Shown: positions 4,722 through 37,638 of the stretch, piece by piece
How the letters are laid out: every line of letters begins with the position of its first letter
Position numbering within the stretch: the first letter of the stretch is position 1
Assembly (NCBI GenBank): GCA_019309045.1
Contig: JAFDGZ010000019.1
Location: 1-57,543, forward strand
Length of the DNA stretch: 57,543 bases
Direction of reading: 5' to 3'
Source of the DNA: Deltaproteobacteria bacterium
GTDB lineage: Bacteria > Desulfobacterota > Syntrophobacteria > BM002
Translations under genes and position numbers: made by a program
The notes under the pieces: model-generated
The model's input: only the letters and a program-made list of their open reading frames with translations
What the model was told of the DNA's origin: nothing
Database searches by the model: none

Positions 4722-4790
4722 TGGCAACATGAAAGTGCACCATGATAACCAATATTGATTAACAGAGTATGATAGGGGATTGGCCGCACA

Positions 4791-4812: not shown

Positions 4813-4913
4813 CCGAATATGCGGCGAGAAGGGATGAACTTTCATTTTGCGATCAACCAGTAAGGTCTAAAAGAAATTGATATTGCTAAGTATCAGCATT
4901 AACTGGACTTCTT

Positions 4914-13970: not shown

Positions 13971-16661
13971 CTAAACGTTTGGAGAAGCAGGGAATAGGCC
14001 TGTCTCTACCGGCAGTTCGGCGGTGGCTTTCCTGGCGCATTCGGGACACAACTTGCGGTCAGCAAAAGGACCAGGCATTATCTGGATCCGTCTACCGACA
14101 AAGTTTAAATACCGCCGCGTACCCAACTCTACACCGCAGCTCTCACAATATTCCAGTTTTTCTCGACGAAGTATAGTACCGCAGAAATTAAGTCGACGCT
14201 CACCATTCACGTCTTCTAAGACAATAGCACCAGTAGGACAATTGGTAGCACATGCACCACACAGAATGCAACGGTCAGCCGCGATCCGAAAATCAGTTAC
14301 TCCTTGCTGGTCGAAATCAAGATAGCCAAACTGCAAGGCATCAACACCCATTTTGTCACGACAGATACTGACGCACAGTCCACAACGTTTGCAGATATCA
14401 CACCTGAGACACCGCCGTCCCTCTTCCCTGGCCATAGCTTCGGATAGTCCCAGCTCCACCTGCTGAAAAGTGATCCTCCTTCTATCCGGATTAAGCATTG
14501 GCATTTCTGGCCGATGCAGGATCATCTTAGTAGCGGCTGGAACCTCGAGCCACTCAACACGCTGGTGACGGACGGGTACCTGCGGCATTTTAGGCTGTGG
14601 CAGTCCTCGCAAGTAGCGGTCTATCCCTGCTGCGGCAAATTTACCTGCACCGATAGCTTCCACTACGGTTGCCGGTCCCAAAACAGCGTCGCCTCCAGCA
14701 AATACTCCATCCTCGTTGGTCATGCCGCTCACTGTATCAGCCAGAAGAGTATTGCGTTTTGTCCACTTAAGGTTTTCCAAAGATTCGAGCCCTTCCGGAT
14801 CGATCTTCTGACCAATGGCGGTGATTACCGCATCAACCTCATACAGATGATCACTGTCTTCCACAGGAACAGGTCGCCGTCTGCCGCTGGAATCTGCTGC
14901 CTCCAGTCTTGCTTTCAGACATCGGATACCAGTAACGCACCCTTCAGTTCCCACGATCTCCACTGGAACAGTGAGAAACGAGAAGCGCACCCCTTCTTCT
15001 TCGGCCTGCTCGACCTCTTCAATACTGGCAGGCATTTCAGAGCGAGTCCGCCGGTAGAGGATGCTGACATCTTGACAGCCAAGCCGAATACAGGTCCTGG
15101 CAGCGTCAATAGCCACGTTGCCGCCACCAATGATCGCCACTCGCCTGCCGGGTTTGTGTCTTTCACCCAAAGCCACTCGGAGGAGAAAAGCTATGGCATC
15201 CAACACTTGAGGGAATGAATCCTCGCCGGCAACTCCCAGCCTGTAAGAACCATGTGCGCCAATACTGATGAAAAATGCCTCGTATCCTTCCTGCCTTAGC
15301 TTTTCGATTGTGGTGTCTTTACCCAGTCTGGTATTATAGCGGAACTCGACCCCCAGGTCCTCAATCATTGCCACCTCCCGATCAATGACCTCCCGTGGCA
15401 GTCGATATCTAGGGATCCCCACCATCATCATCCCACCCGCCATGGGCAGAGCCTCAACCACAGTGACCCGGTAACCTCTCAATACCAGGTAATAGGCCGC
15501 GGTAAGTCCTGCCGGACCTGCACCGATCACGCAGACCTTGTGGCCATTGTCTGGGGCTTTTTGTGGGTTGACATAGGTACGCTCGGACATGGCTCTTTCG
15601 GCAGCAAAGGCCTTAAGATCTCGTATGGCTATGGGTGTGTCGATCCTACCACGAACGCAGACGTATTCACATGGGTGCGTGCACACCAAACCACATACCC
15701 AGGGGAAGGGGTTGTCCTTACGGATGAGTTCAACCGCCTCGGCATCGCGACCCTGGCCGATCAGGCTCACGTAACTCGAGACATCAATCCCGGCCGGACA
15801 GGCCATCTGACAAGGCGCCGGCGTGAGAACGTCACAATCCCCGGTCGGACAAACATGGGTGGTAATATGACTTTCATAGACCTCCTGGTATTCTGCAATG
15901 GCCACTGATACCATCTGTCCCACAAGGCGAGCCCCTTCCTCACCGGCTTCCGCCATAAGCTTATTGGCCAGCGAATCTATGGCCGGCAAGTGGTCTGTCC
16001 CACCCCTGCCACGGCTGACATCCTCAAGAAGCTCAATCAATGATTCCACTCTCTGCCGAGAGCGAGGTTCAGTGACCCGCCCTCTGGTCTCCAACGCTCT
16101 AGAAAGGTCATTTAAAGTTTTCGTTACGGGGCAGACACTTATTCCCGGAGGGTTCGCCACCTCGATTGACATTACGTCTGCAAGATGCTCTTCTCTCTGC
16201 TCTTCGGTCAACTCTGCAGTTCTTTCAAAATGAAGGCATTTGGTCACACATTTAGCCACGCAAGCTGGTTCCAGACCTTGATCCACCCGGTCCATACAGT
16301 AGTCACATTTTACCACCTTGCCGGTCTCAGGATTCCACTGGGGCGCACCATAGGGGCAGGCCTCGATACAGGACTTGCATCCCACACAGAGTTCTTCATC
16401 CACAAAAACAATACCGTCCTTTGCCCGCGTCTGCATAGCGCCAGTCGGGCATGCTGGTACACACCATGGCTCGTCACAATGAAAACAAGGCATGAAGACG
16501 AAGTCCGTCTTGGGAATGTTGTTTACCACTTGGGGGGTAGTCGTAATGATACGGCACAAGCGGGGCCCTGGAGGGAGCCCTTTGTTGTCTTTACAGTGGA
16601 CCTCACAAGAGTGGCAGCCGATGCATTCTTCCCTGTCCTGATAGAGGTGGTATTGGCTCAT
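13971..16661 (-). CDS. Fe-S / GltD-like NAD(P)H oxidoreductase fusion
   Basis: This 896-residue cytoplasmic protein joins three modules. Residues 1-190 are a DmsB/PsrB-like four-cluster electron carrier (CIGCHSCEVHC, CFHCDEPWCVPACP, CVGCKSCIEACP, CDYCMDR). Residues about 285-690 are a GltD-like flavoprotein with its own Fe-S entry (CQMACPAGID), FAD site VIGAGPAGLTAAYYL and NAD(P) site IIGGGNVAIDAART. The C terminus adds two [4Fe-4S] motifs (CDICKRCGLCVSIC, CILCGACATNCP) and a four-Cys zinc-like tail (CESC...CPEC). It likely moves electrons between the upstream molybdopterin enzyme and NAD(P). The ATG at 16661 has AAGGAG seven bases upstream. Confidence 0.88.
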   Translation of the reverse strand: MSQYHLYQDREECIGCHSCEVHCKDNKGLPPGPRLCRIITTTPQVVNNIPKTDFVFMPCFHCDEPWCVPACPTGAMQTRAKDGIVFVDEELCVGCKSCIEACPYGAPQWNPETGKVVKCDYCMDRVDQGLEPACVAKCVTKCLHFERTAELTEEQREEHLADVMSIEVANPPGISVCPVTKTLNDLSRALETRGRVTEPRSRQRVESLIELLEDVSRGRGGTDHLPAIDSLANKLMAEAGEEGARLVGQMVSVAIAEYQEVYESHITTHVCPTGDCDVLTPAPCQMACPAGIDVSSYVSLIGQGRDAEAVELIRKDNPFPWVCGLVCTHPCEYVCVRGRIDTPIAIRDLKAFAAERAMSERTYVNPQKAPDNGHKVCVIGAGPAGLTAAYYLVLRGYRVTVVEALPMAGGMMMVGIPRYRLPREVIDREVAMIEDLGVEFRYNTRLGKDTTIEKLRQEGYEAFFISIGAHGSYRLGVAGEDSFPQVLDAIAFLLRVALGERHKPGRRVAIIGGGNVAIDAARTCIRLGCQDVSILYRRTRSEMPASIEEVEQAEEEGVRFSFLTVPVEIVGTEGCVTGIRCLKARLEAADSSGRRRPVPVEDSDHLYEVDAVITAIGQKIDPEGLESLENLKWTKRNTLLADTVSGMTNEDGVFAGGDAVLGPATVVEAIGAGKFAAAGIDRYLRGLPQPKMPQVPVRHQRVEWLEVPAATKMILHRPEMPMLNPDRRRITFQQVELGLSEAMAREEGRRCLRCDICKRCGLCVSICRDKMGVDALQFGYLDFDQQGVTDFRIAADRCILCGACATNCPTGAIVLEDVNGERRLNFCGTILRREKLEYCESCGVELGTRRYLNFVGRRIQIMPGPFADRKLCPECARKATAELPVETGLFPASPNV

Positions 16662-16831
16662 CAATTTTCTCCTTCAAGTATTTCTCTCACCGGGGCCAGC
16701 ATGGCACCCCGTCATTGCTGTAATGCAATTCACATATGGCTTTGCTGGAATCAGGTCCTTTTCCCCAAAAGTTGTTGAACCAGCACGCCCTGTTCGCTAC
16801 CGCGTTCGTCCGAAAATCCAAGGGCATGGCA

Positions 16832-19304: not shown

Positions 19305-20372
19305 TCACCTCTCAACTGGTAACAATATGGTGAAGGTGGTACCCTTACCCACCGTACTCTCCATTTTGATCTCTCCACCATGCTTTGCAACAATGCTTTG
19401 AGATACGGCCAGACCCAGTCCTGTGCCTCTGCCTGGCCCCTTCGTTGTGTAAAAAGGCTCAAAGATCTTTTCTCTTATCTCTGGGGGAATACCGCAGCCA
19501 GTGTCCTGTATAGTAATACAGATGAGGCCCCTGTCTGGCTCAAATTCGGTGCGAACGGTAATGGTGCCGTCTGTACCAATAGCCTGCTGGGCGTTCACAA
19601 GAAAATTGAGAAATACTTGTTTGAGCCGATCCACATCACCGACAATCAAGGGAATATTCGGTTCAAAGTCCTGAATCAGCTCAATTCTTTCAGTCTTAAA
19701 TCTGTTTTCCATCAGGTGGATTACTTCCGAGATGCTATTGTTCACGTCAACAGGACCCCATTCAGTATCGCTTTTCCTCGTAAAGGCAAGGAGATCACCC
19801 ACCACCTTACGACACATCTGGGCACATTCTTCAATTTCCTTCAGGCTATTCCATGCATCAGATTCAGGTTCGGCTTCCCTGAGAAGAAGCTGTGTATAGC
19901 CAAGAATGATGTTCAGAGGGTTATTTATCTCATGGGCAACACTGGCCGCCAACTGACCCAAAGCAGCCATTTTTTCCATGTTACCCAGATGATTACCCAG
20001 AGGCTCCAACTCGCACCGCTTTTGGATCAAGACTTGGAATTCTGTACCATTACGGCTGTCACCGGAAAACAGCTTGGCCGAGACCGCTGATGCCACCCAA
20101 TTGCCATCCTGCCGGCGCAAACTGACGTTGCGGCTTCTCACTTCCCCCTTTGTCAGGAGATCGTCAAGAAAGTCCTGCCACTGGTCAGCAGAAGGGAAGA
20201 AACTGAATAGAGGCACTCCCATCAAGCTCTGCTCGGGAGGAATCCCCAACAATTTATTGGCAGCATCATTCGCCTTCTCAATAATCCCTGAAGGATCGCA
20301 GACGCAATAGGCACAATCCACAACCTTTAGCAGCCAGGCGTAAACTTCCGCTTGCGTCTTGCTGCCTTTCAT
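19305..20372 (-). CDS. Soluble PAS histidine kinase
   Basis: This 355-residue cytoplasmic kinase has a PAS domain (about residues 10-120), a HisKA domain with [10 protein letters not shown] near residue 145, and a complete HATPase domain (N box FLVNAQQAI, G1 DTGCGIP, G2 GRGTGLGLAVS). It has no membrane segment. Its ATG overlaps the stop of the upstream membrane sensor gene (ATGA), so they are coupled. That sensor lacks an ATPase domain, so this kinase may supply catalytic activity for the pair. The single-domain regulator at 25070-25459 is a likely phosphate acceptor. Confidence 0.88.
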   Translation of the reverse strand: MKGSKTQAEVYAWLLKVVDCAYCVCDPSGIIEKANDAANKLLGIPPEQSLMGVPLFSFFPSADQWQDFLDDLLTKGEVRSRNVSLRRQDGNWVASAVSAKLFSGDSRNGTEFQVLIQKRCELEPLGNHLGNMEKMAALGQLAASVAHEINNPLNIILGYTQLLLREAEPESDAWNSLKEIEECAQMCRKVVGDLLAFTRKSDTEWGPVDVNNSISEVIHLMENRFKTERIELIQDFEPNIPLIVGDVDRLKQVFLNFLVNAQQAIGTDGTITVRTEFEPDRGLICITIQDTGCGIPPEIREKIFEPFYTTKGPGRGTGLGLAVSQSIVAKHGGEIKMESTVGKGTTFTILLPVER

Positions 20373-21436
20373 ATATCTTCCTCTTCTTCGGATGCCTTTT
20401 CAATATCCACCAATCGCACGTCTCCCACATAGTCTTTAGCAGTATACTGACGAATTGTCGTCATCTTCCTTGTCAACTTGCTCATCCGCTTCACCTCATG
20501 GATGATATCCTCCAATTCTTCATAGAATGGATCACTCTTCTCCATTTGCCTCTGGATGAGTTGGACATTTCCGAGCACAGTAAACATGGGGGTGTTCAAT
20601 TCATGTGCCACTGCTGTAGCCATTTCCACTACGCCTTGCAGCTTCTCCTGCTGTCGCAGTTGTTCTTCTAGCCTAACCTTTTCAGTGATATCCCGCAATG
20701 TTTCAATGATATACTCCAATTCTCCTTCTTCGTTGACCACCGGGGAAGCCATAATCTCCATAATGGCAAATTCACCGTCTGGCTTTTGATGGCGGTGGGT
20801 GAGAATCACCGCCTCTTTCTTCTGTTCCATGAGCTTCCACGGACAAATATGATCCTCGTTTTCCACATTCCGGCAGTCGCTGCCAGCTTCACAGCCTTGA
20901 TGAAAGACTTCATGACATTTTTTCCCGACAAGCTGCTCACGGCTAGAGTTGAGATCGTCGACAAGTTTTTGGTTCACTAGTCTCACGTTATAGCCCGGGT
21001 CGATCACCACGAGTTGGGCGTTCAAACTGTCAATGACGTGCTGAAGAAAATCCCGGGCGCTTTCCATTTCCGCCAGATAATGAGCATGCCGTTCATCACG
21101 CTCCTTTTGGATGCGCTGAAAAACTACATATAGAAAGGAACTAGCCGCAATAATTACAAAAGTGACCGTGTTAATGGCACCAGAAATTGGGGAAAGCGCC
21201 CGCCATTGGTCAGCATAGCCCGCAGTTACAACAAGCCGACGCACCAGGTGCCCCAAAGCCCTGCTCACAGCAAAAGCCGCCAATGTACACGCCAACAGAT
21301 AAAGATAAAGGTGAATTAGGCTTCGTTGTCGCATCTGATACGATTCGTAGACTATTGCGACCGCTAACAACAGCATAGCTATCGAGCCCACGACATCCAC
21401 CAGATATGTGAAAGACATAGGGAGTGAAAGGCTCAT
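20369..21436 (-). CDS. Membrane PAS-HisKA sensor lacking an ATPase domain
   Basis: This 355-residue protein has four hydrophobic segments (about residues 10-110), a linker, a PAS domain (about 125-250) and a HisKA helix with H278 in VAHELNTP. It ends at residue 355 soon after the dimerisation helices: no N, G1 or G2 boxes are present. The PAS domain contains four cysteines (C174, C182, C188, C198) with CHEVFHQGC, suggesting metal, Fe-S or thiol sensing. The membrane domain is paralogous to that of the kinase at 27904-29421 (shared SR..H...R, P..G.INT.TFVI). It overlaps the small membrane gene by one base and the soluble kinase by four. Confidence 0.85.
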   Translation of the reverse strand: MSLSLPMSFTYLVDVVGSIAMLLLAVAIVYESYQMRQRSLIHLYLYLLACTLAAFAVSRALGHLVRRLVVTAGYADQWRALSPISGAINTVTFVIIAASSFLYVVFQRIQKERDERHAHYLAEMESARDFLQHVIDSLNAQLVVIDPGYNVRLVNQKLVDDLNSSREQLVGKKCHEVFHQGCEAGSDCRNVENEDHICPWKLMEQKKEAVILTHRHQKPDGEFAIMEIMASPVVNEEGELEYIIETLRDITEKVRLEEQLRQQEKLQGVVEMATAVAHELNTPMFTVLGNVQLIQRQMEKSDPFYEELEDIIHEVKRMSKLTRKMTTIRQYTAKDYVGDVRLVDIEKASEEEEDI

Positions 21437-21891
21437 TACGATTTACCTTCTCGCACCTTTTCATGTCTCAGAAGTCTCAAACCATAGTAGAGGCAAACAG
21501 CTGCCGGAACAGAAAGAAGATGGTCTTGTTTACCAGCATAAGAGACCAAATCAAACAATCCATTTGCCTGGAACCGCAAAGACCAGTCCTTCGCCAAGCC
21601 CACATACTGACTTCTAGGGATCAAGGCATCCAGTACGTGGACCAAAAACGTGTCCAGGTTCCAAAGGGCAAAAAGAAGAAATGACATGCGAATGAAGTGC
21701 CAGCTCTTTCTTGGACGATGGCGGGTAACCCACCAAATATAGAGCATGGCGCCTAGGAAAAGGAGGTGACCGAGTTGATGTGTGTAAAGCCCTTCCGGCG
21801 CGCCGTGGACGATGGTAGCTAGACTCTCACCCGGCCAGATGACCACCAGACAGCCAGCTAATAGTCCAGTCAGAAGTAACTTCCCTCTCAC
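21436..21891 (-). CDS. His-rich small membrane protein, copy 1
   Basis: This 151-residue protein has an N-terminal hydrophobic segment and about three or four membrane helices. It carries conserved histidines H29, H38, H42 (pattern HGAPEGLYTHQLGH), H85 and H124 (DHLLSVPA). All five recur at matching places in the paralogue at 27366-27914. Multiple His in membrane helices suggest heme b or metal binding, but this is inference. The GTG start at 21891 has only a weak ribosome binding site. Its stop overlaps the start of the membrane sensor (TAATG), so the two probably form one sensing unit. Confidence 0.75.
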   Translation of the reverse strand: MRGKLLLTGLLAGCLVVIWPGESLATIVHGAPEGLYTHQLGHLLFLGAMLYIWWVTRHRPRKSWHFIRMSFLLFALWNLDTFLVHVLDALIPRSQYVGLAKDWSLRFQANGLFDLVSYAGKQDHLLSVPAAVCLYYGLRLLRHEKVREGKS

Positions 21892-22204
21892 CCTATTACT
21901 CGTGGATGTCCCACCACAACTAGCAATGATGGGATGAAAAAGAAACCCGAAAGAGGCCCAGCGAGTTGCTCTTCTTAGACGAAATCCAAATTAGATTGTG
22001 CAGTTCAGAAATCAGACGAACACTGGGCAATGGATGTGAGATCAGAGATGGGGAATCGTCACCTCTCCCACTTACTTCACATACCCGATATCCCATATCT
22101 CACATCTACCGTTTGAAGCGTGAGGCAAAACAACGTTTGTCATTCTCAAAAACAACACTCCATCTAAGGTGGAGCGTTATTATTCCATGACGACTAAAAG
22201 TAGG
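21892..22204 (-). other. Intergenic region with long inverted repeat
   Basis: No gene is seen. A perfect 10-bp inverted repeat GATGTGAGAT (22033-22042) and ATCTCACATC (22097-22106) frames a 54-base centre, extended inward by ATGGG (22048-22052) and CCCAT (22092-22096). Similar GTGAGAT-rich spacers look like degenerate intergenic repeats. The promoter of the downstream His-rich sensor operon may lie here; no sigma-54 element was found. Confidence 0.5.
22146..22176 (-). terminator. Intrinsic terminator after TorD-molybdopterin gene
   Basis: On the minus strand CGCTCCA (22176-22170) pairs with TGGAGTG (22162-22156), one G-U pair included, with a seven-base loop, and is followed by TTGTTTTTGA. 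It lies about 30 bases after the stop of the gene ending at 22205, a good position for Rho-independent termination. It would separate that operon from the sensor operon. Confidence 0.7.
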
Positions 22205-25054
22205 TCAGCTCACCTTCTCCACTGTTGTTTTAATATACTTGAGTGGCGGCGTCCCCCCAACCCAGTCGGCGCTGTTGGGCTTCATAATCCCCGGGGGGTT
22301 GGTGCCCCCGAACTGTGGATACTTGGGATCCGCTTCCGGCCCTCGCCAGTGCCCAAAACCTCCAGCAGAACCAAGCACACCCTGCATGATAAACCAGGTG
22401 GGCTTTACCTCCATAATCACCTCACCCCAAGGCGAGCGAAGCTTCACCTTGTCCCCCTCTTCTAACCCGCGCTGTTTAGCGTCAAGCTTGTTCATCCACA
22501 GCGGGTTAGTGCCCTCAGACTTCACGAGTCTGAAGTTGTGGAAGGTAGAGGAGTGCTCATGGGCATAAAGCCTGAAGTTACCAAATACAAAGGGGTACTT
22601 TTCATCCGGCTGCATGTCGGCATCTGGCTCTTTGTAATCTGGCAAGGGATCCACTCCCTTTGCTTCGGCCACCGGATTTTTGAAGTTGTACTTGCCAGTC
22701 TTGCTCTTCCCAGAGCTGCCGTAACCTTCGGGCGGATTCAGGCTCCCCCACTTCTTGTATTTGTAATATTCGGCCTCGTCGGTAATGAGGAATCCTTTCT
22801 CCTTGAGTTCTTCATAAGACCATGGTGTACCGGCAAGCTGATTGCGCTCGGCTTCCTCAATATCCTTCCAAGGAAAGTACTCGCCGTATCCCAATCTCTT
22901 GGCCAACTCCACCGTTATCCACCACATGGGCTTTGCATTGAAGAGGGGGTCAATGATCTTAGCATAATAGGCGATAAATGCATCGTAGAGCCAATCAGCC
23001 TTTATCTGGCTATGCTCAAGAAAGGTGACGTCGGGGAGCACTACGTCGCTGAGTACTGCAGTATTGCACATGAAGGCATCAATAACAGCACAGAATTCCA
23101 ACTGCTTGATGGCCTCCACCATCTTTTCCTGGTTACCCCATGAGAGAACCGGATCGCCGAAATAGCAAATCAGAGCCTTGAGCCTCCCTTCTGCCACATC
23201 CTTGGGGAAGAAGGCCGGCGCCCAGCCTTGCCAGATGCCCAGCTTGTTCAACTTGGGAGGCGAGTTTGCCGGCGGCTTCTGCTGTCCCTCACCCCAGGCG
23301 CTCTTCAACTTTCTTTTGAAGGGAAGAGACGGGCCTCCCGGGGCATCGAAGGTACCCAGCAGTCCATTGAGCGCCTGAACAGCAGCCGTACCGTACATTG
23401 AATTGGGACTCTGGGCGACACCCGTCCAACTCAAAGCCCCTTTGTATTTGGTATGAGCAAACTCCACGGCAATGCGCTCAATGGTCTCCGCAGGCACCCC
23501 GCTGATCTTCGCCGCCCATTCAGGACTGCGAGCCACCCCATCTTCCTCTCCCAGTAAACGCTTCTTGAACTCTTCAAAGCCGTACGTCCAGTTCTCGACG
23601 AAATCTTTATCGTAAAGCTCTTTTGTGACAATTACATAGCACATGGCCATGGCAACGGCTGCATCTGTGGCCGGTTTGATCTGAATCCACTCGGTGGCTT
23701 CGGCTGCAGTCTCTGATCTTCGCGGATCCAAAACCACAAGCTTCGCACCCCGTCTGACTGCCGCACGAAGCCCGGCTGTTTTGCGTTGACCATAAGAAGT
23801 TGCCAGCTCATTCATGCCAAAATGCAGAATATATTCTGAATTTTCATAATTAATCCAAGGTCTCTTGTCGTTCAGATTGTGTTCATTGGCCATGCGGTTG
23901 GAATTATCACACATGGGCCGATGGGTTGTCTTATGAGCACCGTAATGGTCAAAAAGGGCCTCGTGAATCCAATTGTACCAATCGTTGCCACGTAAATAGC
24001 CCACAGTACTAGGCTCCAATTGTTTAAGAGCGGTTGCCACTCGATCCAGAGCCTCATCCCACGTGGCCTTTCGAAAACGGCCGTTCTCCCTGATCAGGGG
24101 TTCCTTGAGTCTGTACGCACTATAAGTATGACTGATAGCGGCAGCACCTTTAGGACAAAGCCTGCCCCCTCCTTTTGGATCACCGGGAAGTCCAGAGATC
24201 CTAGTGGCAATGCCATCCTTTACCGTCACGCGAGTACCACACAGAGCGCCGCAAATGTAACAATGGCTGGGAATTGTCTTCGTGCGCTCAGGCTCTTTGG
24301 CGCCGTCAGCAAGAGTTTGATAACCTCCCGGAAAGGAGAGAGACTTTACTGCCACACCCAACAGATTCAAAGCCTTCACCAGTTCGTCCTCTGGCTTTGT
24401 GCCCGATTGTATGTTGAAGGCTAATCTTCGCTCATGGAAGAGGAAACTCAATGTCAAATCGGCCAGACCCCGATAGAAATCCGATTGGGCGCTACTCGAG
24501 AGTACTGCACAGAATTCCACAGCCCACCGCATCAGATGATTCTTGAGGAACTCAATCTGACTGTCTTGCAAGGCCGTGCCGCGCTGTTCGTCTTCCTGTG
24601 AAATCTGCTCCAGCAAATAACGGCAAAATTCGAGTTCTACAGCGATGTGATCGTCTAGGTCGTGATAATTGTCCGACTTATGTACACCGGCTGCACGGTA
24701 TGCTTTGCGCACCTCGAAAATAGGCTCTTGCATGACAACCGGCTCTCGACTCACGTAAACTGATTCATAGGGAAACACGGGATTAACACCAGCGTTGAGA
24801 AACAAATCGGCGTATTCATAGCGAAGCATGTTGTAAACATCCGCTTCCTCTGCCCTTCCGAGAAACCTGACGATTCTTTCTACCCCGTTCCTCAAATCAT
24901 CAATCGTGCATGTGTCCAAAAAAGCGGAAATCTTTTCAGAGAATTCAGGCTTTTTGAGCTGCTTGATTAAGTCGAGGGAGATCTCATCGCCATATAATAC
25001 GGAGAGAAACTGGTAAATCCTGGCCCGGTTTTCTGTAAGTTGGCTGAACTCCAT
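22205..25054 (-). CDS. TorD-like chaperone fused to molybdopterin oxidoreductase
   Basis: This 949-residue protein fuses a TorD/DmsD-type assembly chaperone (about residues 1-225; EYADLFLNAG, FPYESVY, DDHIAVELEFC) to a complete DMSO-reductase-family catalytic domain (about 260-949). The catalytic part has [4Fe-4S] cysteines C265, C268, C272 and C300 and a likely Mo ligand C382 in RPMCDNSN. There is no Tat signal, so it is cytoplasmic. No dedicated Fe-S or membrane subunit is adjacent; the Fe-S/GltD fusion at 13971 could serve. The response regulator gene lies 15 bases upstream and GGGAGGA precedes the ATG. The substrate is unknown. Confidence 0.88.
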   Translation of the reverse strand: MEFSQLTENRARIYQFLSVLYGDEISLDLIKQLKKPEFSEKISAFLDTCTIDDLRNGVERIVRFLGRAEEADVYNMLRYEYADLFLNAGVNPVFPYESVYVSREPVVMQEPIFEVRKAYRAAGVHKSDNYHDLDDHIAVELEFCRYLLEQISQEDEQRGTALQDSQIEFLKNHLMRWAVEFCAVLSSSAQSDFYRGLADLTLSFLFHERRLAFNIQSGTKPEDELVKALNLLGVAVKSLSFPGGYQTLADGAKEPERTKTIPSHCYICGALCGTRVTVKDGIATRISGLPGDPKGGGRLCPKGAAAISHTYSAYRLKEPLIRENGRFRKATWDEALDRVATALKQLEPSTVGYLRGNDWYNWIHEALFDHYGAHKTTHRPMCDNSNRMANEHNLNDKRPWINYENSEYILHFGMNELATSYGQRKTAGLRAAVRRGAKLVVLDPRRSETAAEATEWIQIKPATDAAVAMAMCYVIVTKELYDKDFVENWTYGFEEFKKRLLGEEDGVARSPEWAAKISGVPAETIERIAVEFAHTKYKGALSWTGVAQSPNSMYGTAAVQALNGLLGTFDAPGGPSLPFKRKLKSAWGEGQQKPPANSPPKLNKLGIWQGWAPAFFPKDVAEGRLKALICYFGDPVLSWGNQEKMVEAIKQLEFCAVIDAFMCNTAVLSDVVLPDVTFLEHSQIKADWLYDAFIAYYAKIIDPLFNAKPMWWITVELAKRLGYGEYFPWKDIEEAERNQLAGTPWSYEELKEKGFLITDEAEYYKYKKWGSLNPPEGYGSSGKSKTGKYNFKNPVAEAKGVDPLPDYKEPDADMQPDEKYPFVFGNFRLYAHEHSSTFHNFRLVKSEGTNPLWMNKLDAKQRGLEEGDKVKLRSPWGEVIMEVKPTWFIMQGVLGSAGGFGHWRGPEADPKYPQFGGTNPPGIMKPNSADWVGGTPPLKYIKTTVEKVS

Positions 25055-25069
25055 AGTGACATCCTCCCG

Positions 25070-25459
25070 TCAGGTAATGCTGATGGTTTCTTTGCTCGGC
25101 TTTCTCGCCGCTAGAGTTCTCTTCGCTGTATTTTCCAATTCATCAATATCGATCGGCTTCACAAGGTACTCCGTAGCTCCCAAAGTGATTGCCTCTTTGG
25201 CTGTCTCGGTGGTGGGATATCCAGTCAGCATGATGGCGCGTATCTCCGGATTGTACTTTTTAAGTTCCGCCAACACCTCAACACCACTCATTTTTTTTAA
25301 CTTAATGTCTAGAATCGCTAGATCCACTTTCGAACTCATGGCATGGTTAATGGCATCGTCCTCCTCGGTAAAAGTGTACACTTCATTCCCCTTTTCAAGA
25401 ACCTTCTTGATCAGATTGCAGGCCTTGGGCTCATCGTCAAGAACCAGGATGTGGGCCAT
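25070..25459 (-). CDS. Single-domain response regulator
   Basis: This 129-residue protein is a CheY-like receiver with no output domain. The acidic pair D8-D9, phosphoacceptor D51 (LAILDIK), the Thr in MLTGY and the Lys in YLVKPI are all present, so it should be phosphorylated. GGAGGAG precedes the ATG. It is the first gene of an operon with the TorD-molybdopterin fusion and sits downstream of a strong sigma-54 promoter. It probably relays phosphate or acts by protein contact, with the kinases at 19305-21436 as likely partners. Confidence 0.88.
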   Translation of the reverse strand: MAHILVLDDEPKACNLIKKVLEKGNEVYTFTEEDDAINHAMSSKVDLAILDIKLKKMSGVEVLAELKKYNPEIRAIMLTGYPTTETAKEAITLGATEYLVKPIDIDELENTAKRTLAARKPSKETISIT

Positions 25460-25777
25460 ATTCTCCTCCTCTCCTGCAAGTAATGAATGCTTGCGACCAA
25501 TGCTTCGTCCGGCGGACGCCGCACCGCTTCTAACTATTTAAACAGTCACAGCATAAAAATTGGATGGTATAAACTTCCGTGTGGAAAGATATGAAGCTAG
25601 TCCTTTCACAAACTCCCTTGATCAGCAGGTAGGATCCGGCAAGAGTTGGCGTGGCGAGAGCAGAACAAATTCCAGCGCAACAATTCCCTCATCCCCCTTG
25701 TCCATTGGGATCTTTCCTCCCTACATACTGACTCTTTAACAGGGGAGGATAAACGAATACACAGAGATAGTCAATCT

Positions 25778-25793
25778 AGCAAATGCAATGCCA
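25778..25793 (-). promoter_or_regulatory. Sigma-54 promoter for the regulator/TorD-molybdopterin operon
   Basis: Read on the minus strand the sequence is TGGCAT-TGCAT-TTGCT, which matches the consensus TGGCAC-N5-TTGCT at all but one position, with the required GG-N10-GC spacing. It points toward the response regulator at 25459 and implies a leader of about 300 bases. Two inverted-repeat sites lie 208-316 bases upstream. Confidence 0.75.
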
Positions 25794-26000
25794 TTTCGAA
25801 GGAAGCAGGATCATCTCCAAAACACTATTATTTACCCCTACGCCACAGTATTTGCTTCCATCATGATTGTCCTTGGTAACGCAGCTAAAATATTGTATGA
25901 AAGAGTCCTACCTTGGAATACGATTTCACGAACGTGCCGGGAATCTGTCGCAAGCCGAGCAACGCAACCACCTGTCGTGTTTCCTACTAAATCTCTGGTG

Positions 26001-26020
26001 CTGCAAGATTTTTCTTGCAT
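26001..26020. promoter_or_regulatory. Candidate enhancer site: CTGCA-N10-TGCAT
   Basis: The half-sites TGCA are ten bases apart, and the palindrome extends to TGCAAGA / TCTTGCA (26002-26008 and 26013-26019). The same TGCA-N10-TGCA layout is seen at 26090, 33537 and 33625. It is a candidate binding site for a dimeric activator; a transcribed hairpin is the alternative. Confidence 0.5.
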
Positions 26021-26087
26021 CATATCTGGGCAATCATACATAATAACCCGACTAAAGAAAAATCGTTGGAATGGAGGAAAAAGATTG

Positions 26088-26111
26088 CAGTGCAAAAACA
26101 AATATGCACTG
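26088..26111. promoter_or_regulatory. Candidate enhancer site: CAGTGCA-N10-TGCACTG
   Basis: A perfect 7-bp inverted repeat with an AT-only-but-one spacer of ten bases. It starts 89 bases from the site at 26001, the same interval as the pair at 33537 and 33625 (88 bases). It lies 55 bases before the DUF362 gene and upstream of the divergent sigma-54 promoter. Confidence 0.55.
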
Positions 26112-26166
26112 GTAGGGGTGAATAGTTATTGAGAACCGTCAACGTGGTCCAAATGGAGGCTCGTCG

Positions 26167-27300
26167 ATGGACCAGGACGAGAGGAGAGTGCCAGTGGCTA
26201 GCTCAGTCTTTGCAATGGATCTTCGTGCCAGTATCAAGGAAAATCTCTTTGCCAAGCTCGACCGTCTGCTAGACGCAGTTGCTCTCGAGAAGATGATCCA
26301 TCCCAGGCATCTTGTGGCTATCAAGCTTCACTTTGGCGAAAAGGGTAACACCGCCTACATAGAACCGGTATTTCTTCGCCACATAGTGGATCGCGTCAAG
26401 CGGTTGGGAGGCAAACCTTTTCTCACCGATGCTAATACGCTATATGTGGGTTCAAGGACCAACAGCGTGGACCATCTCAGTACGGCCATTGAAAACGGCT
26501 TCGCCTATGCTGTGGTGGGGGCGCCTCTCACCATTGCCGACGGCCTGCGGGGCAACTCCGAAGTAGCAGTGCAGGTCGATCTACCAATTTACCATGAGGT
26601 CTACCTAGGGGCCGATGTGGTGCATGCAGATGCGCTAATCAGCGTGGCGCATTTCAAGGGTCACGAACTTGCCGGCTTTGGCGGCACCATAAAGAATATC
26701 GGCATGGGATGCGCCTCTCGCAGAGGCAAGTTGGCTCAGCACTGCGAAGTCTCTCCCAAATTCAACGGCAAAAAGTGTGTCGGCTGCGGCGAATGTGTGG
26801 CCCACTGTCCGGTGGAGGCCATCACACTCGTGAAAAAAAAGGCCAAGAAAGACGTAAAGAAATGCATTGGCTGTGGCGAGTGCATTGCTGTCTGTCCGGA
26901 AGAGGCGGTCACCATTCCCTGGGACAAGGATATGGCCCGCTTTCAAAAAAAGATGGTCGAATACACTTTCGGGGTGCTCCAAGGGAAAAAGGATAGAGCC
27001 CTGTTTTTGAACTTTGTCTGTCGGGTCACGCCGCAATGCGATTGCTATAGCTACAGTGACGCCCCTTTAGTCAATGATCTCGGCATCCTGGCCAGCCTAG
27101 ACCCGATAGCTGTTGATCAGGCTGCAGTGGATCTCGTCAATGACCAGGCAGCACTGCCCGGGTGCTGCCTGACAAGCAATACCGCAGCGGGTGAGGACAA
27201 GTTCCGGGGAGTCTATCCCCACATTGATTGGTCGGTACAGCTGGACTACGGAGAGAAGTTGGGCCTTGGAAGCAGGAAGTACAAGATCAACCATATATAA
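26167..27300 (+). CDS. DUF362 protein with two [4Fe-4S] clusters
   Basis: This 377-residue cytoplasmic protein has a DUF362 domain (about residues 45-215 and 270-377) interrupted by a two-cluster ferredoxin insert (CVGCGECVAHCP near 200 and CIGCGECIAVCP near 230). Lys/Arg-rich spacing between the clusters is typical. DUF362 proteins have no firm biochemical role and are widespread in anaerobes as putative electron-transfer proteins. GGAGG lies nine bases before ATG 26167. The next gene, a His-rich membrane protein, begins 65 bases later on the same strand, so it probably belongs to the sensor operon. Confidence 0.87.
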   Translation: MDQDERRVPVASSVFAMDLRASIKENLFAKLDRLLDAVALEKMIHPRHLVAIKLHFGEKGNTAYIEPVFLRHIVDRVKRLGGKPFLTDANTLYVGSRTNSVDHLSTAIENGFAYAVVGAPLTIADGLRGNSEVAVQVDLPIYHEVYLGADVVHADALISVAHFKGHELAGFGGTIKNIGMGCASRRGKLAQHCEVSPKFNGKKCVGCGECVAHCPVEAITLVKKKAKKDVKKCIGCGECIAVCPEEAVTIPWDKDMARFQKKMVEYTFGVLQGKKDRALFLNFVCRVTPQCDCYSYSDAPLVNDLGILASLDPIAVDQAAVDLVNDQAALPGCCLTSNTAAGEDKFRGVYPHIDWSVQLDYGEKLGLGSRKYKINHI

Positions 27301-27365
27301 TCCGGGCAGTTGACCAGGGCAGCCGTCCCACCAATAATTACCAGAAATTTACTCGATGAATCAAA

Positions 27366-27914
27366 ATGTTGTACCTTAAATGCAGCACAGCCCCACGACG
27401 TTGCCGACACACTTGCAAAAGGCTTGCGAGTCGAGTAACACCCCTCCGGTTGACCAGCCTGGCACTGTTCTTCTGGATAGTGACCCAGCCAAGCACTCTC
27501 TGGGCCCTGCAGGTGCATCCTGCCCCCGAGGGACTCTTTGCCCATCAGATAGCCCACCTGTTTTTCATTCTTTCCATGGGCATTCTCGTCTACTGGCTGC
27601 AATCCAACAATCTGGTGAGAGAGCGCGGCTGGCGATTTGTGCAGCTCTCCTGCATCCTGTTTATAGTGTGGAACTGCTGTGCCTTCACCGGCCACTGGCT
27701 GAGCAGCAAAATGGTCCCCGAAATGTTTATCGGTGCCACCTCAGATGTTGATCGCCGCCTTATTGTAAGCCGCTCACCTACGCTTGCACTTGCCTATTAC
27801 TTTCTCAACATGGATCACCTTCTGTGTGTACCGGCCATCTCCTTTCTCTTTCTTGGTCTGCGTGCCTTTTACCGCCAGGCACGCCTAGAGGAGGCAGGCG
27901 AAGATGGTTACTAG
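27366..27914 (+). CDS. His-rich small membrane protein, copy 2
   Basis: This 182-residue protein is the paralogue of the one at 21436-21891. It has a positively charged N terminus, a signal-like hydrophobic stretch (about 28-48) and three further helices. The conserved histidines are H51, H60, H64 (HPAPEGLFAHQIAH), H110 and H151 (DHLLCVPA). The extra N-terminal 25 residues suggest the true start may be internal, but no ATG or GTG with a good ribosome binding site is available. The gene overlaps the following kinase by 11 bases, as its paralogue overlaps its own sensor gene. Confidence 0.75.
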   Translation: MLYLKCSTAPRRCRHTCKRLASRVTPLRLTSLALFFWIVTQPSTLWALQVHPAPEGLFAHQIAHLFFILSMGILVYWLQSNNLVRERGWRFVQLSCILFIVWNCCAFTGHWLSSKMVPEMFIGATSDVDRRLIVSRSPTLALAYYFLNMDHLLCVPAISFLFLGLRAFYRQARLEEAGEDGY

Positions 27915-29421
27915 TCTACCACTCTATCCTGTGTGGCTGGTTGACGTCATGGGGGCAACCTCGATGATTGTTTTGTCTTTCCTCTGCGTCAGGTACGCCC
28001 ATCTGCTCAGACTCTCTGATAGCAAAAACGTCATATGGACCTATCTGTTGTGGCTCTCACTAGCACTCGCCCTTTTTTCACTGTCGCGTTCAATAGCACA
28101 CATAGCCAAGCGAGTGCTTCTTCTTACAGACAACGGCGATATCTGGCTCATGCTGAGGCCTGTCACCGGCTCTATCAATACACTCACCTTTGTAATCGTC
28201 AGCAGCATTACTCTGTTCTTCCAGAGAGTATACCGGGTAAATGTCCAAATTCTCAATGATAAGGAGGCAATCGAGCGGGCCAGTGAAGAACTCCTCTGGC
28301 TCAACCGCAACCTTGAAGAAATCGTTAGGCAGCGGACTGCAGAACTGTCTGCTTCGGAAAAGAACTACCGGCGCATATTCGAGGCTTCCATGGACATCAT
28401 TCTCATCCTGGACAGAACAGGAAAATTTCTAGACATAAATCAGGCCGGTCTCAATAATCTGGGCTATGGTACCAAAACCGAACTCGTGGGCACCAGCAGT
28501 CTGGCTGATCTGGTGGAACATCCAGTAGACTGCCAGAAGGTGCTCAGAGAAATTGCCGAGGCTGGCTTCAAGAAAAACCTCGAGTGCCGGCTGCGCCGCA
28601 GAGATGGAGAAATTCTCACCTGGCTGTTCACTTTTACGGTGAACCGCGGCCTGGGGGGTGAAGTTGAGACTTTCGAGGGCATTGCCAAAGATATTACCGA
28701 AAGAAAAAAGATGGAGCAGCAACTGCTGCAGGCGGATCGTCTGGCCTCACTCGGCCAGCTTTCTGCTGGTGTTGCTCACGAAATTAACAATCCCCTCGGA
28801 CTGATACTGGGTTATACTCAACTGCTGCTGAGGAGTGAACCAGGAGACACCCAGACTTTTGCCGATTTGAAAATCATTGAAAAACATGCCCAGAATTGCA
28901 AGGTTATTGTGGAAGATCTTCTCAATTTCGCCCGCTCCAGTGAATCTCAAAAGGGTCCGGTTAACATCAACGATCTTCTCAGGGAGACAGTGGCCGTGGT
29001 GCAGCATCAGTTTGCTCTCGACAACGTTGTTATCGAAACGCACTACAGCGCAGGCCTGCCAACCATCAATGCCGACGGCGAAAAACTGAAACAGGTGTTC
29101 ATGAACCTTTTTATGAATGCCAGGCAGGCCATCGAACACCATGGAACCATCAGGATACACACTGGAAGTTCAGCCTCTCGCCATTGGATCACCATATCTG
29201 TGGCTGACACCGGGGTCGGCATCCCCGCGCCTATTGTGGACAAGATCTTTGATCCCTTCTTCACCACCAAGCCTACTGGGCAGGGCACTGGGCTGGGCTT
29301 GTCGGTAAGCTATGGTATCATCAAGGATCATCAGGGGGAAATCACTGTAGAGAGCACTCCTGGCGAAGGCAGCATCTTCACCATTCGGCTTCCTGTCAGA
29401 CCAGAAAGGGAATATCTCTAG
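27904..29421 (+). CDS. Membrane PAS histidine kinase
   Basis: This 505-residue kinase has four N-terminal membrane segments (about 10-110), a coiled linker, a PAS domain (about 150-270), HisKA with [10 protein letters not shown] near residue 293, and a full HATPase domain ([30 protein letters not shown]). The membrane part is paralogous to that of the sensor at 20369-21436, including H66 matching H63 there. It is followed 36 bases later by an NtrC-type regulator, its obvious partner. The preceding small membrane protein overlaps its start and may be its sensing subunit. Confidence 0.9.
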
Positions 29422-29457: not shown

Positions 29458-30849
29458 ATGACAGCAAAAATACTCCTAGTCGACGACGAATTGGATATGT
29501 TGAGCCTGCTGAAGCGGCTCATTGCCAGTGAATTCGCCTGTGACATCGACACCGCGGCAAGTGGGGTCCAGGCCTTGGAACTCCTGGCTCGCAGCACCTA
29601 TGATCTTGCCCTTGTAGATGTTCGCATGCCCGGTATGGACGGCATTGAACTGCTCGAACGCATAAGAGAGACCAATCCGTGGACCACGGTTTTGATGTTG
29701 ACCGCCTATGGGGTAGTTGAACTGGCAGTGGAATCAATCAAAAAGGGCGCCTATGATTTCATCACCAAGCCTTTTGACCAGGACAAACTCATTCACGTGC
29801 TCCGCAATGCTATGGAGCGAAGCAGACTCCTCAGGGAAAACCTCAACCTCCAGCGCCGCATTAAAGAAAGCGAGCCTTTCCAGGATCTGGTCGGGGCCAG
29901 TCCTGCCATGCAGCGCATATACCAGACCATTCAGATGATCGCCAAAACAGACGTCACCGTGCTGCTCACCGGCGAATCTGGGACTGGCAAGGACCTGGCC
30001 GCCCGGGCCATCCACCGGTTGAGTCACCGCAGCAGCAAACCATACGTAGCAGTCAATTGTCCCACCCTGCCGGAAAACATCCTGGAGAGTGAACTCTTTG
30101 GCTATCGTAAAGGCGCCTTCACCGACGCCTCAGCAGACAAAACAGGGCTCTTCGAAGACGCCCAAGGGGGTACCATTTACCTGGATGAAATCGGTGACAT
30201 AGCACCCACAATTCAGACCAAACTACTGCGCGTCCTTCAGGAAAAGGAAATCAAACCCCTCGGGCAAAATAAATCGATTACCGTGGACGTCCGCGTCATA
30301 GCTTCCACCAACAGAAACCTTCGCGAAAAAATCCAGCAGAAGCAATTTCGCGAAGACCTCTTTTTTCGCTTGAATGTACTCACACTGGAAATGCCTCCCT
30401 TGCGAGAACGAAAAGAAGATATACCACTGCTGGCTGAACACTTCCTACAGCGCTACTGTGCCGAGTTCAACAAACCGGGAAAGTCCTTGTCACCTGAGTT
30501 CATCGAGCTTCTTCTTCGCCGACCATGGGAAGGCAATGTACGGGAACTGGAAAACATTATCAAACGCGCCATCCTCCTCTCAGCCGACGAGCTTATTCAA
30601 CCAGAGGACATCAACTGGACTAGTCTGCGGCCTCAGGAGTGCCTGGTGGGCATGGAAATTCATGATCTCCCTTACAAAGAGGCCAAGAAAGAGTTGCTGC
30701 AGCGCTTTCACATTGAGTATCTGTCGAGGCTTCTCAGCCGCCACAAGGGAAATGTCACCCGCTCGGCCAAAGAAATCGGCATGGAGCGCCAGGCGCTCCA
30801 GCAGATTATGCGCCGCTATGGGGTGAAATCTCAGGACTTCCGCAATTAG
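29458..30849 (+). CDS. NtrC-family sigma-54 response regulator
   Basis: This 463-residue activator has a receiver (D9-D10, D54, Lys in FITKPF), an AAA+ domain (Walker A GESGTGKD near 170, Walker B GGTIYLDE near 238, Arg fingers in FREDLFFRL) and a Fis-type HTH at the C terminus (GNVTRSAKEIGMERQALQQIM). The sigma-54 contact loop reads GAFTDA instead of GAFTGA, a variant that also occurs in other activators. It is the only sigma-54 activator visible here and lies between two sigma-54 promoters that share upstream inverted repeats. Its partner is most likely the kinase just upstream. Confidence 0.92.
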   Translation: MTAKILLVDDELDMLSLLKRLIASEFACDIDTAASGVQALELLARSTYDLALVDVRMPGMDGIELLERIRETNPWTTVLMLTAYGVVELAVESIKKGAYDFITKPFDQDKLIHVLRNAMERSRLLRENLNLQRRIKESEPFQDLVGASPAMQRIYQTIQMIAKTDVTVLLTGESGTGKDLAARAIHRLSHRSSKPYVAVNCPTLPENILESELFGYRKGAFTDASADKTGLFEDAQGGTIYLDEIGDIAPTIQTKLLRVLQEKEIKPLGQNKSITVDVRVIASTNRNLREKIQQKQFREDLFFRLNVLTLEMPPLRERKEDIPLLAEHFLQRYCAEFNKPGKSLSPEFIELLLRRPWEGNVRELENIIKRAILLSADELIQPEDINWTSLRPQECLVGMEIHDLPYKEAKKELLQRFHIEYLSRLLSRHKGNVTRSAKEIGMERQALQQIMRRYGVKSQDFRN

Positions 30850-33749: not shown

Positions 33750-33765
33750 TGGCACAACCTTTGCT
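33750..33765 (+). promoter_or_regulatory. Sigma-54 promoter, consensus match
   Basis: TGGCAC-AACCT-TTGCT matches the -24/-12 consensus at every defined position. Transcription would begin near 33777, about 65 bases before the pseudo-receiver gene at 33841. Confidence 0.85.
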
Positions 33766-33840: not shown

Positions 33841-34203
33841 ATGGCAACAGCGCTGATTGTGGACAGGGAGAGCGACACTCGCCAACTGCTGAGAAGGATC
33901 CTTCGTGGCCACGGCCACCAAGTCTTTGCCTTTGCAAACCAGCAGGACGCCCTCGCCTGGGCCAACTCTCATAGGGTTGACTTGGCCATCGTGGAACTCG
34001 AGCCTGAAGTTGGCCTGGACTACAGGGCCTGGCTCACTTTGAAGCAAAGCAAGGGCGAACCGAAAGTATTGACGCTCAGCCGGTACTTCAGCAAGCACCT
34101 GGCCCTTGAAGCGCTGGCTGCTGGCACTGAAGGCTACTTCCTCAAGCCGGTGGACATAGAGGAGCTGGAATTCAAGGTCAACACTCTGGCAATGGACCTC
34201 TGA
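33841..34203 (+). CDS. Pseudo-receiver (response regulator-like) protein
   Basis: This 120-residue CheY-like domain has lost its phosphorylation site: the residue at the acceptor position is Glu52 (AIVELEP instead of AIVDL.P), and the acidic pair is D8-R9. The Thr/Ser (LTLSR) and Lys (FLKPV) positions are kept. It may be locked in one state, as Glu can mimic phospho-Asp, or respond to something else. It is the first gene after a consensus sigma-54 promoter. A purine-poor CCCCGGGGGTTC precedes the ATG, so GGGGG is the only ribosome-binding-like sequence. The next gene begins three bases after its stop. Confidence 0.8.
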   Translation: MATALIVDRESDTRQLLRRILRGHGHQVFAFANQQDALAWANSHRVDLAIVELEPEVGLDYRAWLTLKQSKGEPKVLTLSRYFSKHLALEALAAGTEGYFLKPVDIEELEFKVNTLAMDL

Positions 34204-34206
34204 GCG

Positions 34207-34647
34207 GTGGAGAGAATATTGCACAACAATGAATCTGGAGGGCTCCAGAAAACAAGCCTTCAAGTTGCCAAGTTTATAGGATATTTCCAGCTTGTGAGTA
34301 TCGGCGGGACTGTACTTCTGAGCCTTTTTCTCACCACCTTTCTGCCCATCTATTCGGTGGTGAACACTGTGCCCTGGGTCCTGGCATTCAGTACGCTGGT
34401 GGCGGGGTATTCGGCTGTGGATAGATTTGGCCGGGGGTTAGAACGCCTACGCTTGCTCGTCATTCTTTCCGCCGTCATAAGCACCATTTTTTGTTTGCTG
34501 TTACTGTCCGGGCTATTTTTCTATTTCATTCAGGAGCTGGCCTTCGACTGGTGGGACGCCATTCTATTTCTTCTCGTTGGGGTTGGTTGTAGCGAGATGG
34601 GAGCGCAACTCGCACTGAAATATCAGCAGTTGAAGAACGCAAAGTAA
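34207..34647 (+). CDS. Small four-helix membrane protein
   Basis: This 146-residue protein has four predicted membrane helices (about 22-48, 52-72, 84-108 and 115-135) with short loops. I do not recognise the family. The start is either GTG 34207, right after the pseudo-receiver stop, or TTG 34219, which has GGAGAG four bases upstream. It sits between the pseudo-receiver and the TauE-like exporter under the same sigma-54 promoter, so a role with the exporter is plausible. Confidence 0.7.
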   Translation: MERILHNNESGGLQKTSLQVAKFIGYFQLVSIGGTVLLSLFLTTFLPIYSVVNTVPWVLAFSTLVAGYSAVDRFGRGLERLRLLVILSAVISTIFCLLLLSGLFFYFIQELAFDWWDAILFLLVGVGCSEMGAQLALKYQQLKNAK

Positions 34648-34745: not shown

Positions 34746-36437
34746 ATGAGGAGATTTGGTATTCTTTTTCTTTTCTTTGGCGTCTGCCTGTTTTCGTTCC
34801 TGGCAGTCTTGCCTCAGGTGGAAGCGGCCGCCACCATATCTGCGACCGAATACAAGGCTGGCGACATGGTGACCATTTCTGGTCAGATCGCCCCCGGCAG
34901 TGATCTTTACGTTGCGGTGGCCTCCCAGCTTACCTTTGCCCCCAAAGACACCACGGGCGTCCATGAGGTGGCAAGACTAAAAAAGGAAGCAAAAAAGCGC
35001 GGCTTCACTAGTGAAACTCGTATTCCGGTACTTTATTACATCCTGACGAACAAACCGGAAGCCTTCGGCAAGGTTACTGCCAAAAGATTCGGCGGGCCAT
35101 CGTTCATGCCCGGCATTTACAAGACCACCATGTTCAAACTAAACAAGTTTGATCAGCTCGACGACTACATAAAGAGCGTTCTCGGGCCCATAAAAACCAA
35201 AGAAGAGTGGAACTTCTACAAGTTTGCTCACGAGTCCACCTACGGCATCAACACCATCACCAAAGAAGGCACCACCAAGGGCAAGATCGTCATCTTTGCC
35301 CGCAGTGTCCTTGGTGATTACGCCAAGACCGGTCATTACTGGGACAAGGGAACCTCTATCCAGCTCGATCCCACCACTGGCAAATTCACCGTCACCTTCA
35401 AGAGCTTCCGCCATACCCCTCCTGACACCAAGTTCAACGTCTTTGTCAACGGCGAAAAAATTGGCTCCTACACCATGAAAGGCAATGGTTTCTGGCTGGC
35501 CAAAGGATTTCGCTATATGAATCCCCTGTGGATCACCATCGGCGCCATCCTGGTGGGAGCCTTCTTTTCAATGATAGGTGCTGCCGGCGGCATGCTCATG
35601 GCTGCCTATCAGGTGATGATCGTACACACTGCCGGCCCCATCGGCATCAATGCGGCCAATGTTCTCCGTCCTTCCAACGTTGCCCTCACCCTGTTCTCAC
35701 CGCTCGGGGCCTTTTATCGGTATGCGGTCAAGGAACGCCGGGTGGCCTGGCCTGTGGGCATCTCTTTTGGTGTGGGTATTCTCATAGGCTCTATCTGGCT
35801 GGGCAAGTACGCCACCAAGTACCTGCCAATGAAGACCTACAAGGAATGGTTGGCAGTGCTGGTGGTAATCATGGGCTTTCGCACCCTCTACGAGTTGACG
35901 CCCAAGGTCATGGAGAAACGCAAGGCCATCAAGGCCATGGTGAAGAAGTTCAATGAAGAAGTGGCCAGGGCCAAAGCAGAAGGCCGGGCTGCCCAGATGG
36001 GCAGAATCGAGCCTGTCAAGACCGGCCTGACCAGCTACCAGTTCAAGTTCTGGGGTGAGGATTTCAACATCAATCCCCTGCTCTTCGGCATCATCGGCTT
36101 GCTGATCGGCATCGTTGCCAGGTCCTTCGGCATCGGCGGCGGCTTCCTGCTGGTGCCGGCCATGACAACCCTGGGCGCCCTGCCCATGTACGTGGCCGTG
36201 CCCGTGGGCCTCATCGGCACCTCTTTCAGCAGCGTCGGCGCCTTCATCGGCTATGCCCTGAACAATTACTGGCCGGATCTCTGGCTTGCCATCGCCATCA
36301 TCATTGGCGGTTTTGTCGGAGGTATGCTCGGCAGTCGACTGCAGAAAATGTTCAGTGAAAAAGCTCTCAAGTGGATACTGGCGGTCACCCTGTTCTTCCT
36401 GTTCTTCCGCTTCTTCAAGATCGAAATCTGGATCTAA
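34746..36437 (+). CDS. TauE/SafE-family exporter with N-terminal periplasmic domain
   Basis: This 563-residue membrane protein is about twice the usual TauE/SafE length. It has a signal peptide (about 1-27, VEAA), an unrecognised soluble domain (about 28-255) that would lie in the periplasm, then two TauE/SafE halves with glycine-rich helices (SMIGAAGGML near 275; SFGIGGGFLLVPA near 460) joined by a charged cytoplasmic loop (about 385-435). The family exports sulfite or organic anions and sulfur compounds; the substrate here is unknown. GAGGAGG lies before ATG 34746. It belongs to the sigma-54 operon. Confidence 0.85.
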   Translation: MRRFGILFLFFGVCLFSFLAVLPQVEAAATISATEYKAGDMVTISGQIAPGSDLYVAVASQLTFAPKDTTGVHEVARLKKEAKKRGFTSETRIPVLYYILTNKPEAFGKVTAKRFGGPSFMPGIYKTTMFKLNKFDQLDDYIKSVLGPIKTKEEWNFYKFAHESTYGINTITKEGTTKGKIVIFARSVLGDYAKTGHYWDKGTSIQLDPTTGKFTVTFKSFRHTPPDTKFNVFVNGEKIGSYTMKGNGFWLAKGFRYMNPLWITIGAILVGAFFSMIGAAGGMLMAAYQVMIVHTAGPIGINAANVLRPSNVALTLFSPLGAFYRYAVKERRVAWPVGISFGVGILIGSIWLGKYATKYLPMKTYKEWLAVLVVIMGFRTLYELTPKVMEKRKAIKAMVKKFNEEVARAKAEGRAAQMGRIEPVKTGLTSYQFKFWGEDFNINPLLFGIIGLLIGIVARSFGIGGGFLLVPAMTTLGALPMYVAVPVGLIGTSFSSVGAFIGYALNNYWPDLWLAIAIIIGGFVGGMLGSRLQKMFSEKALKWILAVTLFFLFFRFFKIEIWI

Positions 36438-37628: not shown

Positions 37629-37638
37629 CTTCAGGGCT

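Follow-up and report, generated by a model that had tools for sequence, protein, structure and literature searches.

Intramembrane-sensing histidine kinases with accessory proteins have been described previously, with BceS and its transporter and WalK and its auxiliary proteins as examples (PMC8534201). The ligands of hemerythrin sites are His together with bridging Asp and Glu, and Desulfovibrio DcrH is an example of a sensor of this type (PMC4257069). The window analyzed here is a stretch of 57,543 nucleotides (nt) of DNA from a Deltaproteobacteria bacterium (contig JAFDGZ010000019.1 of assembly GCA_019309045.1). It carries two modules, A and B, in each of which the gene for a small His-rich membrane protein precedes a kinase-type gene with a predicted three-helix membrane domain. 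The pair looks like an unrecognized sensor by which sulfate reducers and their relatives turn on genes for sulfur transport and molybdenum enzymes. The four genes are as follows:

21436-21891, minus strand (read from 21891 to 21436): small protein A, 151 amino acids from a GTG start, signal peptide and three helices, with conserved H29, E33, H38, H42, W77, H85, D123 and H124 (open reading frame, conservation in homologues and AlphaFold2 (AF2) model).
20369-21436, minus strand: kinase A, a three-helix membrane domain (residues 1 to about 124), a Cys-containing PAS domain and HisKA, with no HATPase (Pfam, AF2).
27366-27914, plus strand: small protein B, an open reading frame of 182 amino acids in which H51, H60, H64, H110 and H151 are the counterparts of the five His of small protein A.
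27904-29421, plus strand: kinase B, a three-helix membrane domain, PAS, HisKA and HATPase (Pfam).

Pairwise alignment identified the two small proteins as paralogues (32% identity, E=2e-21). Small protein A has His at positions 29, 38, 42, 58, 65, 85, 124 and 143, and small protein B has His at positions 15, 51, 60, 64, 110 and 151. An initial annotation of this DNA had reported five ordered His pairs and a DHLLxVPA motif common to both proteins, and these are present in the sequence. The match between the His of the two proteins is not due to chance since these His are conserved in 30 homologues. As the annotation also stated, each small gene overlaps a kinase-type gene (by 1 nt in module A and 11 nt in module B), and the two kinase membrane domains are themselves paralogous, with SRxxxH and PxxGxINTxTFVI as common motifs. 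The catalytic core of kinase B includes both HisKA and HATPase_c in Pfam. The genome to which the window belongs has just two copies of the pair and contains dsrA. A recent local duplication of modules A and B was ruled out, as the tree places the copies in different old subfamilies.

Pairing was surveyed across the phylum in 395 genomes, using a query profile made from the two small proteins and a separate profile made from the kinase membrane domain. Relatives of the small protein were found in 85 genomes and relatives of the membrane domain in 82. The 109 small-protein places and the 108 membrane-domain places matched one to one on the same strand, and 109 of the 113 small-protein matches were immediately 5' of a kinase of this type. 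The leftover matches were all weak, namely four to the small protein (E 1.6e-4 or worse) and one to the domain (E=0.008), and every strong kinase-domain match had a small partner. A second collection consisted of 80 named loci and the window, and the patterns used to scan it included some of the conserved residues. Here, the small gene was followed by the kinase domain in 80 of 82 cases, the remaining two being cut by contig ends, and no membrane domain without a small gene was detected. The most divergent family members were likewise paired. At loci uncut by a contig end, the start of the kinase overlapped the end of the small gene by 4 nt in 58/78 and by 1-11 nt in 74/78. The cytoplasmic parts of the kinases vary between subfamilies and the pair itself is constant. 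These data support the small protein and the kinase membrane domain being a unit of its own that is strictly paired across the phylum. The initial annotation had proposed such a unit, and both the pairing, whose four exceptions are weak matches, and the translational overlap bear this out; because of them, homologues cannot be said to lie usually far from the kinases.

Searches of Pfam, NCBIfam, PHROGs and PDB sequences gave no match for small protein A or B, in agreement with the annotation's remark that there is no named family, so a known non-signaling family is not indicated. Searches of these four collections gave no name for the kinase membrane domain either, and the comparison of that of kinase A with Cyt_bd_oxida_II (E=0.016, 15 bits) was below the cut-off of 35.6. 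No relative of the pair was found in a plasmid search, and a search of the accessible literature found no paper on it. Foldseek and a second structural look returned only generic helical bundles, with a best Foldseek E of 0.44. The small protein and the membrane domain of the kinase both have three helices and a GH near a helix end, but homology between the two was rejected on the basis of a profile comparison that gave a probability of 4%.

Conservation in the small protein falls mainly on His, Glu and Asp. In an unbiased profile search, four of the five His were invariant in 30 homologues and the fifth was kept in 29/30. Among 128 unique pairs, which include divergent ones, H38 was kept in 127, H42 and H85 in 126 each, D123 in 123, H124 in 122, E33 in 121 and H29 in 115, and kinase H63 was kept in 127. 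Conservation of the His holds across homologues, though divergent clades replace H29 or H124. The AF2 model of small protein A (pLDDT 89) has a signal-peptide helix followed by helices at residues 32-55, 62-90 and 124-150. In this model, H29, E33, H38 and H42 precede helix 1 or are within its first half, H85 is close to the end of helix 2, and D123 and H124 are at the start of helix 3. Since cleavage of the signal peptide would place the N-terminus in the periplasm, the conserved residues should all be on the periplasmic side. The initial annotation had described the kinase sensor as a four-helix domain. AF2 instead predicts three helices (residues 7-34, 40-71 and 75-124; pLDDT 92) connected by loops of 3-5 residues, with no extracytoplasmic sensor domain, so that the transmembrane helices would be the input region. 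With three helices and the kinase core inside, the kinase N-terminus is expected to be outside, and D14, R59, H63, W78, G86 and N89 of the kinase would fall towards the same outer side as the small-protein residues.

Residues that change together in the two proteins were also found. Twelve pairs that lack H29 form one clade with a support of 0.999. The kinases of this clade have R59H and N89D, and D14 is replaced with Glu, Gln or Gly, while the remaining 116 pairs all keep R59. The loss of a His from the small protein and the gain of one in the kinase suggest a shared ligand site, to which both proteins may contribute. Two other pairs have lost several of the residues. H38, H42, H85 and H124 are lost together in locus L120 (about 4095-4927), and H29, H42 and H85 are lost together with kinase H63 in locus L121 (about 3587-4383). 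It is possible that these two pairs are degenerate or re-purposed sensors.

The genes and promoters around the two modules in the window are listed below:

19305-20372, minus strand: soluble PAS-HisKA-HATPase kinase that overlaps kinase A by 4 nt (Pfam, alignment with the kinase of locus L035).
22205-25054, minus strand: NarJ/TorD-like chaperone domain fused to a molybdopterin oxidoreductase, in the small protein A operon (Pfam PF02613 and PF00384).
25070-25459, minus strand: stand-alone response-regulator receiver, the first gene of the module A operon (Pfam PF00072).
25778-25793, minus strand: predicted sigma-54 promoter TGGCAT-N5-TTGCT, upstream of the module A operon (motif scan).
26167-27300, plus strand: DUF362-ferredoxin protein, immediately 5' of small protein B (Pfam).
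29458-30849, plus strand: NtrC-type response regulator with receiver, sigma-54 activator and Fis-type helix-turn-helix domains (Pfam).
33750-33765, plus strand: predicted sigma-54 promoter TGGCAC-N5-TTGCT, 75 nt ahead of the receiver-DUF-TauE operon (motif scan).
33841-34203, plus strand: receiver-domain protein, the first gene of the TauE operon (Pfam).
34207-34647, plus strand: small membrane protein "DUFtm10", which recurs upstream of TauE in relatives.
34746-36437, plus strand: TauE/SafE exporter with an N-terminal extracytoplasmic region of about 250 residues (Pfam PF01925).
36506-37138, plus strand: small membrane protein after TauE, EMC3/TMCO1-like at threshold (Pfam, 27.1 bits).

Several types of neighbor recur near the pair in the 80 named loci. 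An NtrC-type regulator was found in 58, a TauE family exporter in 42 and a molybdopterin oxidoreductase in 39, in many cases fused to a chaperone domain. Lone receivers were seen in 16 loci, small membrane proteins in 17 and 16, and Fe-S/NAD(P)H partner proteins in 18 and 16, and all of these types are present in the window according to Pfam. The seven closest relatives of the window's TauE (66-80% identity) are each within about 15 kb of a pair on the same contig. The gene order of receiver, molybdopterin oxidoreductase, small protein and kinase is also found in locus L036, and in L037 the small gene directly follows a gene for a protein 59% identical to the window's DUF362-ferredoxin. In the Nitrospirae locus L071 (8581-9699), the gene directly upstream of the pair encodes a PF04143 sulfur transporter rather than TauE, and two universal stress proteins precede this transporter. 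An exclusive tie of the pair to TauE or to molybdenum enzymes was ruled out by DUF362-ferredoxin, DHOD-like, ion-channel and other neighbors.

The consensus TGGCAY-N5-TTGCW occurred at 35 sites in 1.1 Mb of pair loci compared to 2 after shuffling, an approximate contrast since the control was a single mononucleotide shuffle. In the loci of relatives, 26 of the 35 sites were at the head of a TauE operon. The window contains exactly two perfect -24/-12 motifs, with 0.41 expected, and they precede the receiver-DUF-TauE operon and the operon of receiver, molybdenum enzyme, small protein A and kinase A. The most economical reading of these sites is that the NtrC-type regulator acts on both the TauE and the molybdenum-enzyme operons via the predicted promoters. 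The initial annotation had suggested control of nearby molybdenum enzymes. The conserved neighborhoods and the sigma-54 promoters are in favor of this, but the TauE exporter is the more regular neighbor and many pairs have neither. In counts read by eye from tables, dsrA was present in 75/82 pair-bearing genomes compared to 113/313 others (Fisher p=7e-21), and the pair is not confined to genomes with dsrA.

On balance, we lean towards an obligate intramembrane co-sensor complex, most likely with a metal site, that signals via the NtrC-type regulator to sigma-54-dependent TauE and molybdenum operons. The small protein and the kinase membrane domain would assemble into one complex, with the conserved ends of both helix bundles in the periplasm, where the two proteins would jointly build one buried site. 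Six His and carboxylates could hold a metal, possibly a binuclear one, that reacts to an external redox or sulfur-related signal. A change in occupancy or redox state would then move the bundle of helices together with the PAS-HisKA rod that follows, altering kinase activity. Gene position and promoters support the last steps, in which phosphate would pass to the adjacent NtrC-type regulator and this regulator would activate the TauE and molybdenum-oxidoreductase operons from their sigma-54 promoters, in many cases along with its own sensor genes. Several points weigh against this proposal. The exchange of H29 for R59H is confined to one clade and is hence a single event and not proof. The patterns used to collect the named loci overlap the conserved residues, and the 82/82 counts, including residue invariance, are thus biased upward; there is less of this bias in the 30-homologue profile set and in the 128-pair set. 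Also, neither TauE nor a molybdenum enzyme is near many of the pairs, and no sigma-54 motif was found ahead of the small protein B gene itself. More tentatively, the pair could be a novel type of membrane metal sensor that reports oxygen, NO or a sulfur species to the sigma-54 regulon of sulfate reducers. Its site would then be a binuclear, hemerythrin-like one on the periplasmic face of the inner membrane, made jointly from two three-helix proteins, some ligands having passed from one protein to the other in evolution.

Another possible, though doubtful, explanation is that the same complex uses its His to hold heme b or to border a quinol site, in which case the kinase would read the state of the quinone pool or of oxygen or NO. 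H38, H42 and H85 are predicted to lie close to one membrane face, about 5-10 residues into their helices, and this is a usual place for a bis-His heme or quinone site; the neighboring molybdenum enzymes and Fe-S proteins are redox enzymes. However, HxxxH on one helix with invariant Glu and Asp is generally known to be closer to metal than to heme sites, and the small proteins match no cytochrome b family in Pfam. The heme/quinone subunit SdhD was among the second-look structural alignments (Z 6.4), but many unrelated bundles score equally well. The TauE near the pair in 42/80 loci, the PF04143 transporter in L071 and the enrichment of dsrA would also be consistent with a charged pocket that binds a sulfur oxyanion, such as sulfite, thiosulfate or similar, without a metal and induces its own exporter. 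This is unlikely, given that the invariant Glu and Asp next to the His disfavor an anion and that pairs also exist in genomes without dsrA and away from sulfur transporters. Finally, membrane accessory proteins that merely modulate kinases are known (PMC8534201), and the small protein could be an assembly or inhibitory partner only, as with MgrB or WalK-YycHI, leaving sensing to the PAS domain, which contains Cys in kinase A. We consider this very improbable because conservation falls on His, Glu and Asp at one membrane face and not along helix contacts, and because the cytoplasmic parts differ among subfamilies while the pair is constant.

Kinase A has no ATPase domain but is probably not a broken gene because the overlapping gene supplies the other half. 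It is 49% identical to residues 1-355 of a 605-residue kinase in the relative L035, and the HisKA-HATPase product of 19305-20372 is 48% identical to residues 373-595 of the same kinase. The L035 protein has two HisKA domains, the first without an ATPase domain. As judged from these alignments, kinase A and the next gene are probably two halves of one sensor kinase. The PAS domain of kinase A has a Cys/His pattern, C...H..C.....DCR......CPW, which is common to L035 and may represent an additional redox or metal site.

Further features of the window were observed. The N-terminal region of TauE has no Pfam match. On the minus strand at 37149-40173, a dual-specificity phosphatase gene overlaps a PEP-synthase-like gene, and this duo recurs near the pair in about ten other loci. 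Besides the fusion of chaperone and molybdopterin oxidoreductase, a ferredoxin is fused to a GltD-like flavoprotein at 13971-16664 on the minus strand.

Much of the carbon turnover of anoxic sediments is due to sulfate reducers, in which the signals governing sulfur metabolism are, to our knowledge, mostly unknown. The pair occurs in about one in five of the sampled genomes of the phylum (82/395). Its usual neighbor is a sigma-54 regulator, and a sulfur exporter and a molybdenum enzyme are often found next to it as well. It is a concrete candidate sensor with named residues, regulator and promoters. If the shared site is real, the pair would clearly exemplify a sensing site divided between a kinase and a partner protein.

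The ligands of hemerythrin are five His, one Glu and one Asp, and the likeness of the pair to hemerythrin sensors is in residue composition only (five His, Glu and Asp, with HxxxE and HxxxH). Unlike hemerythrin, the small protein is a predicted membrane-embedded three-helix protein with other spacing and order of these residues, and neither small protein matches the hemerythrin family in Pfam or NCBIfam. The DASS/SulP sulfate-uptake systems of Desulfobacteraceae place the transport of sulfur anions by sulfate reducers under the control of two-component systems, as is proposed here, but they use Cache-domain kinases and WalR-type regulators (PMC11887813), in contrast to the predicted three-helix membrane domain, obligate partner and NtrC-type regulators of the pair. 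AtoSC and ZraSR are similar in having a PAS-HisKA-HATPase kinase, a sigma-54 activator and -24/-12 promoters, which are predicted here, whereas the input module of the pair is new and matches to the AtoS and ZraS models are confined to the cytoplasmic part and far below cut-off. As with BceS and WalK, there is no predicted extracytoplasmic sensor domain, the input would be at the transmembrane helices and a partner membrane protein is encoded alongside; signal receipt through this partner is our proposal. The partner here is a three-helix protein with invariant His, Glu and Asp, not a transporter or a single-helix protein, and no sequence relation to those systems was found. The best home for the pair is among the intramembrane-sensing histidine kinases with accessory membrane proteins, where it would be a new variant because this partner and its set of His, Glu and Asp match none of the examples found.

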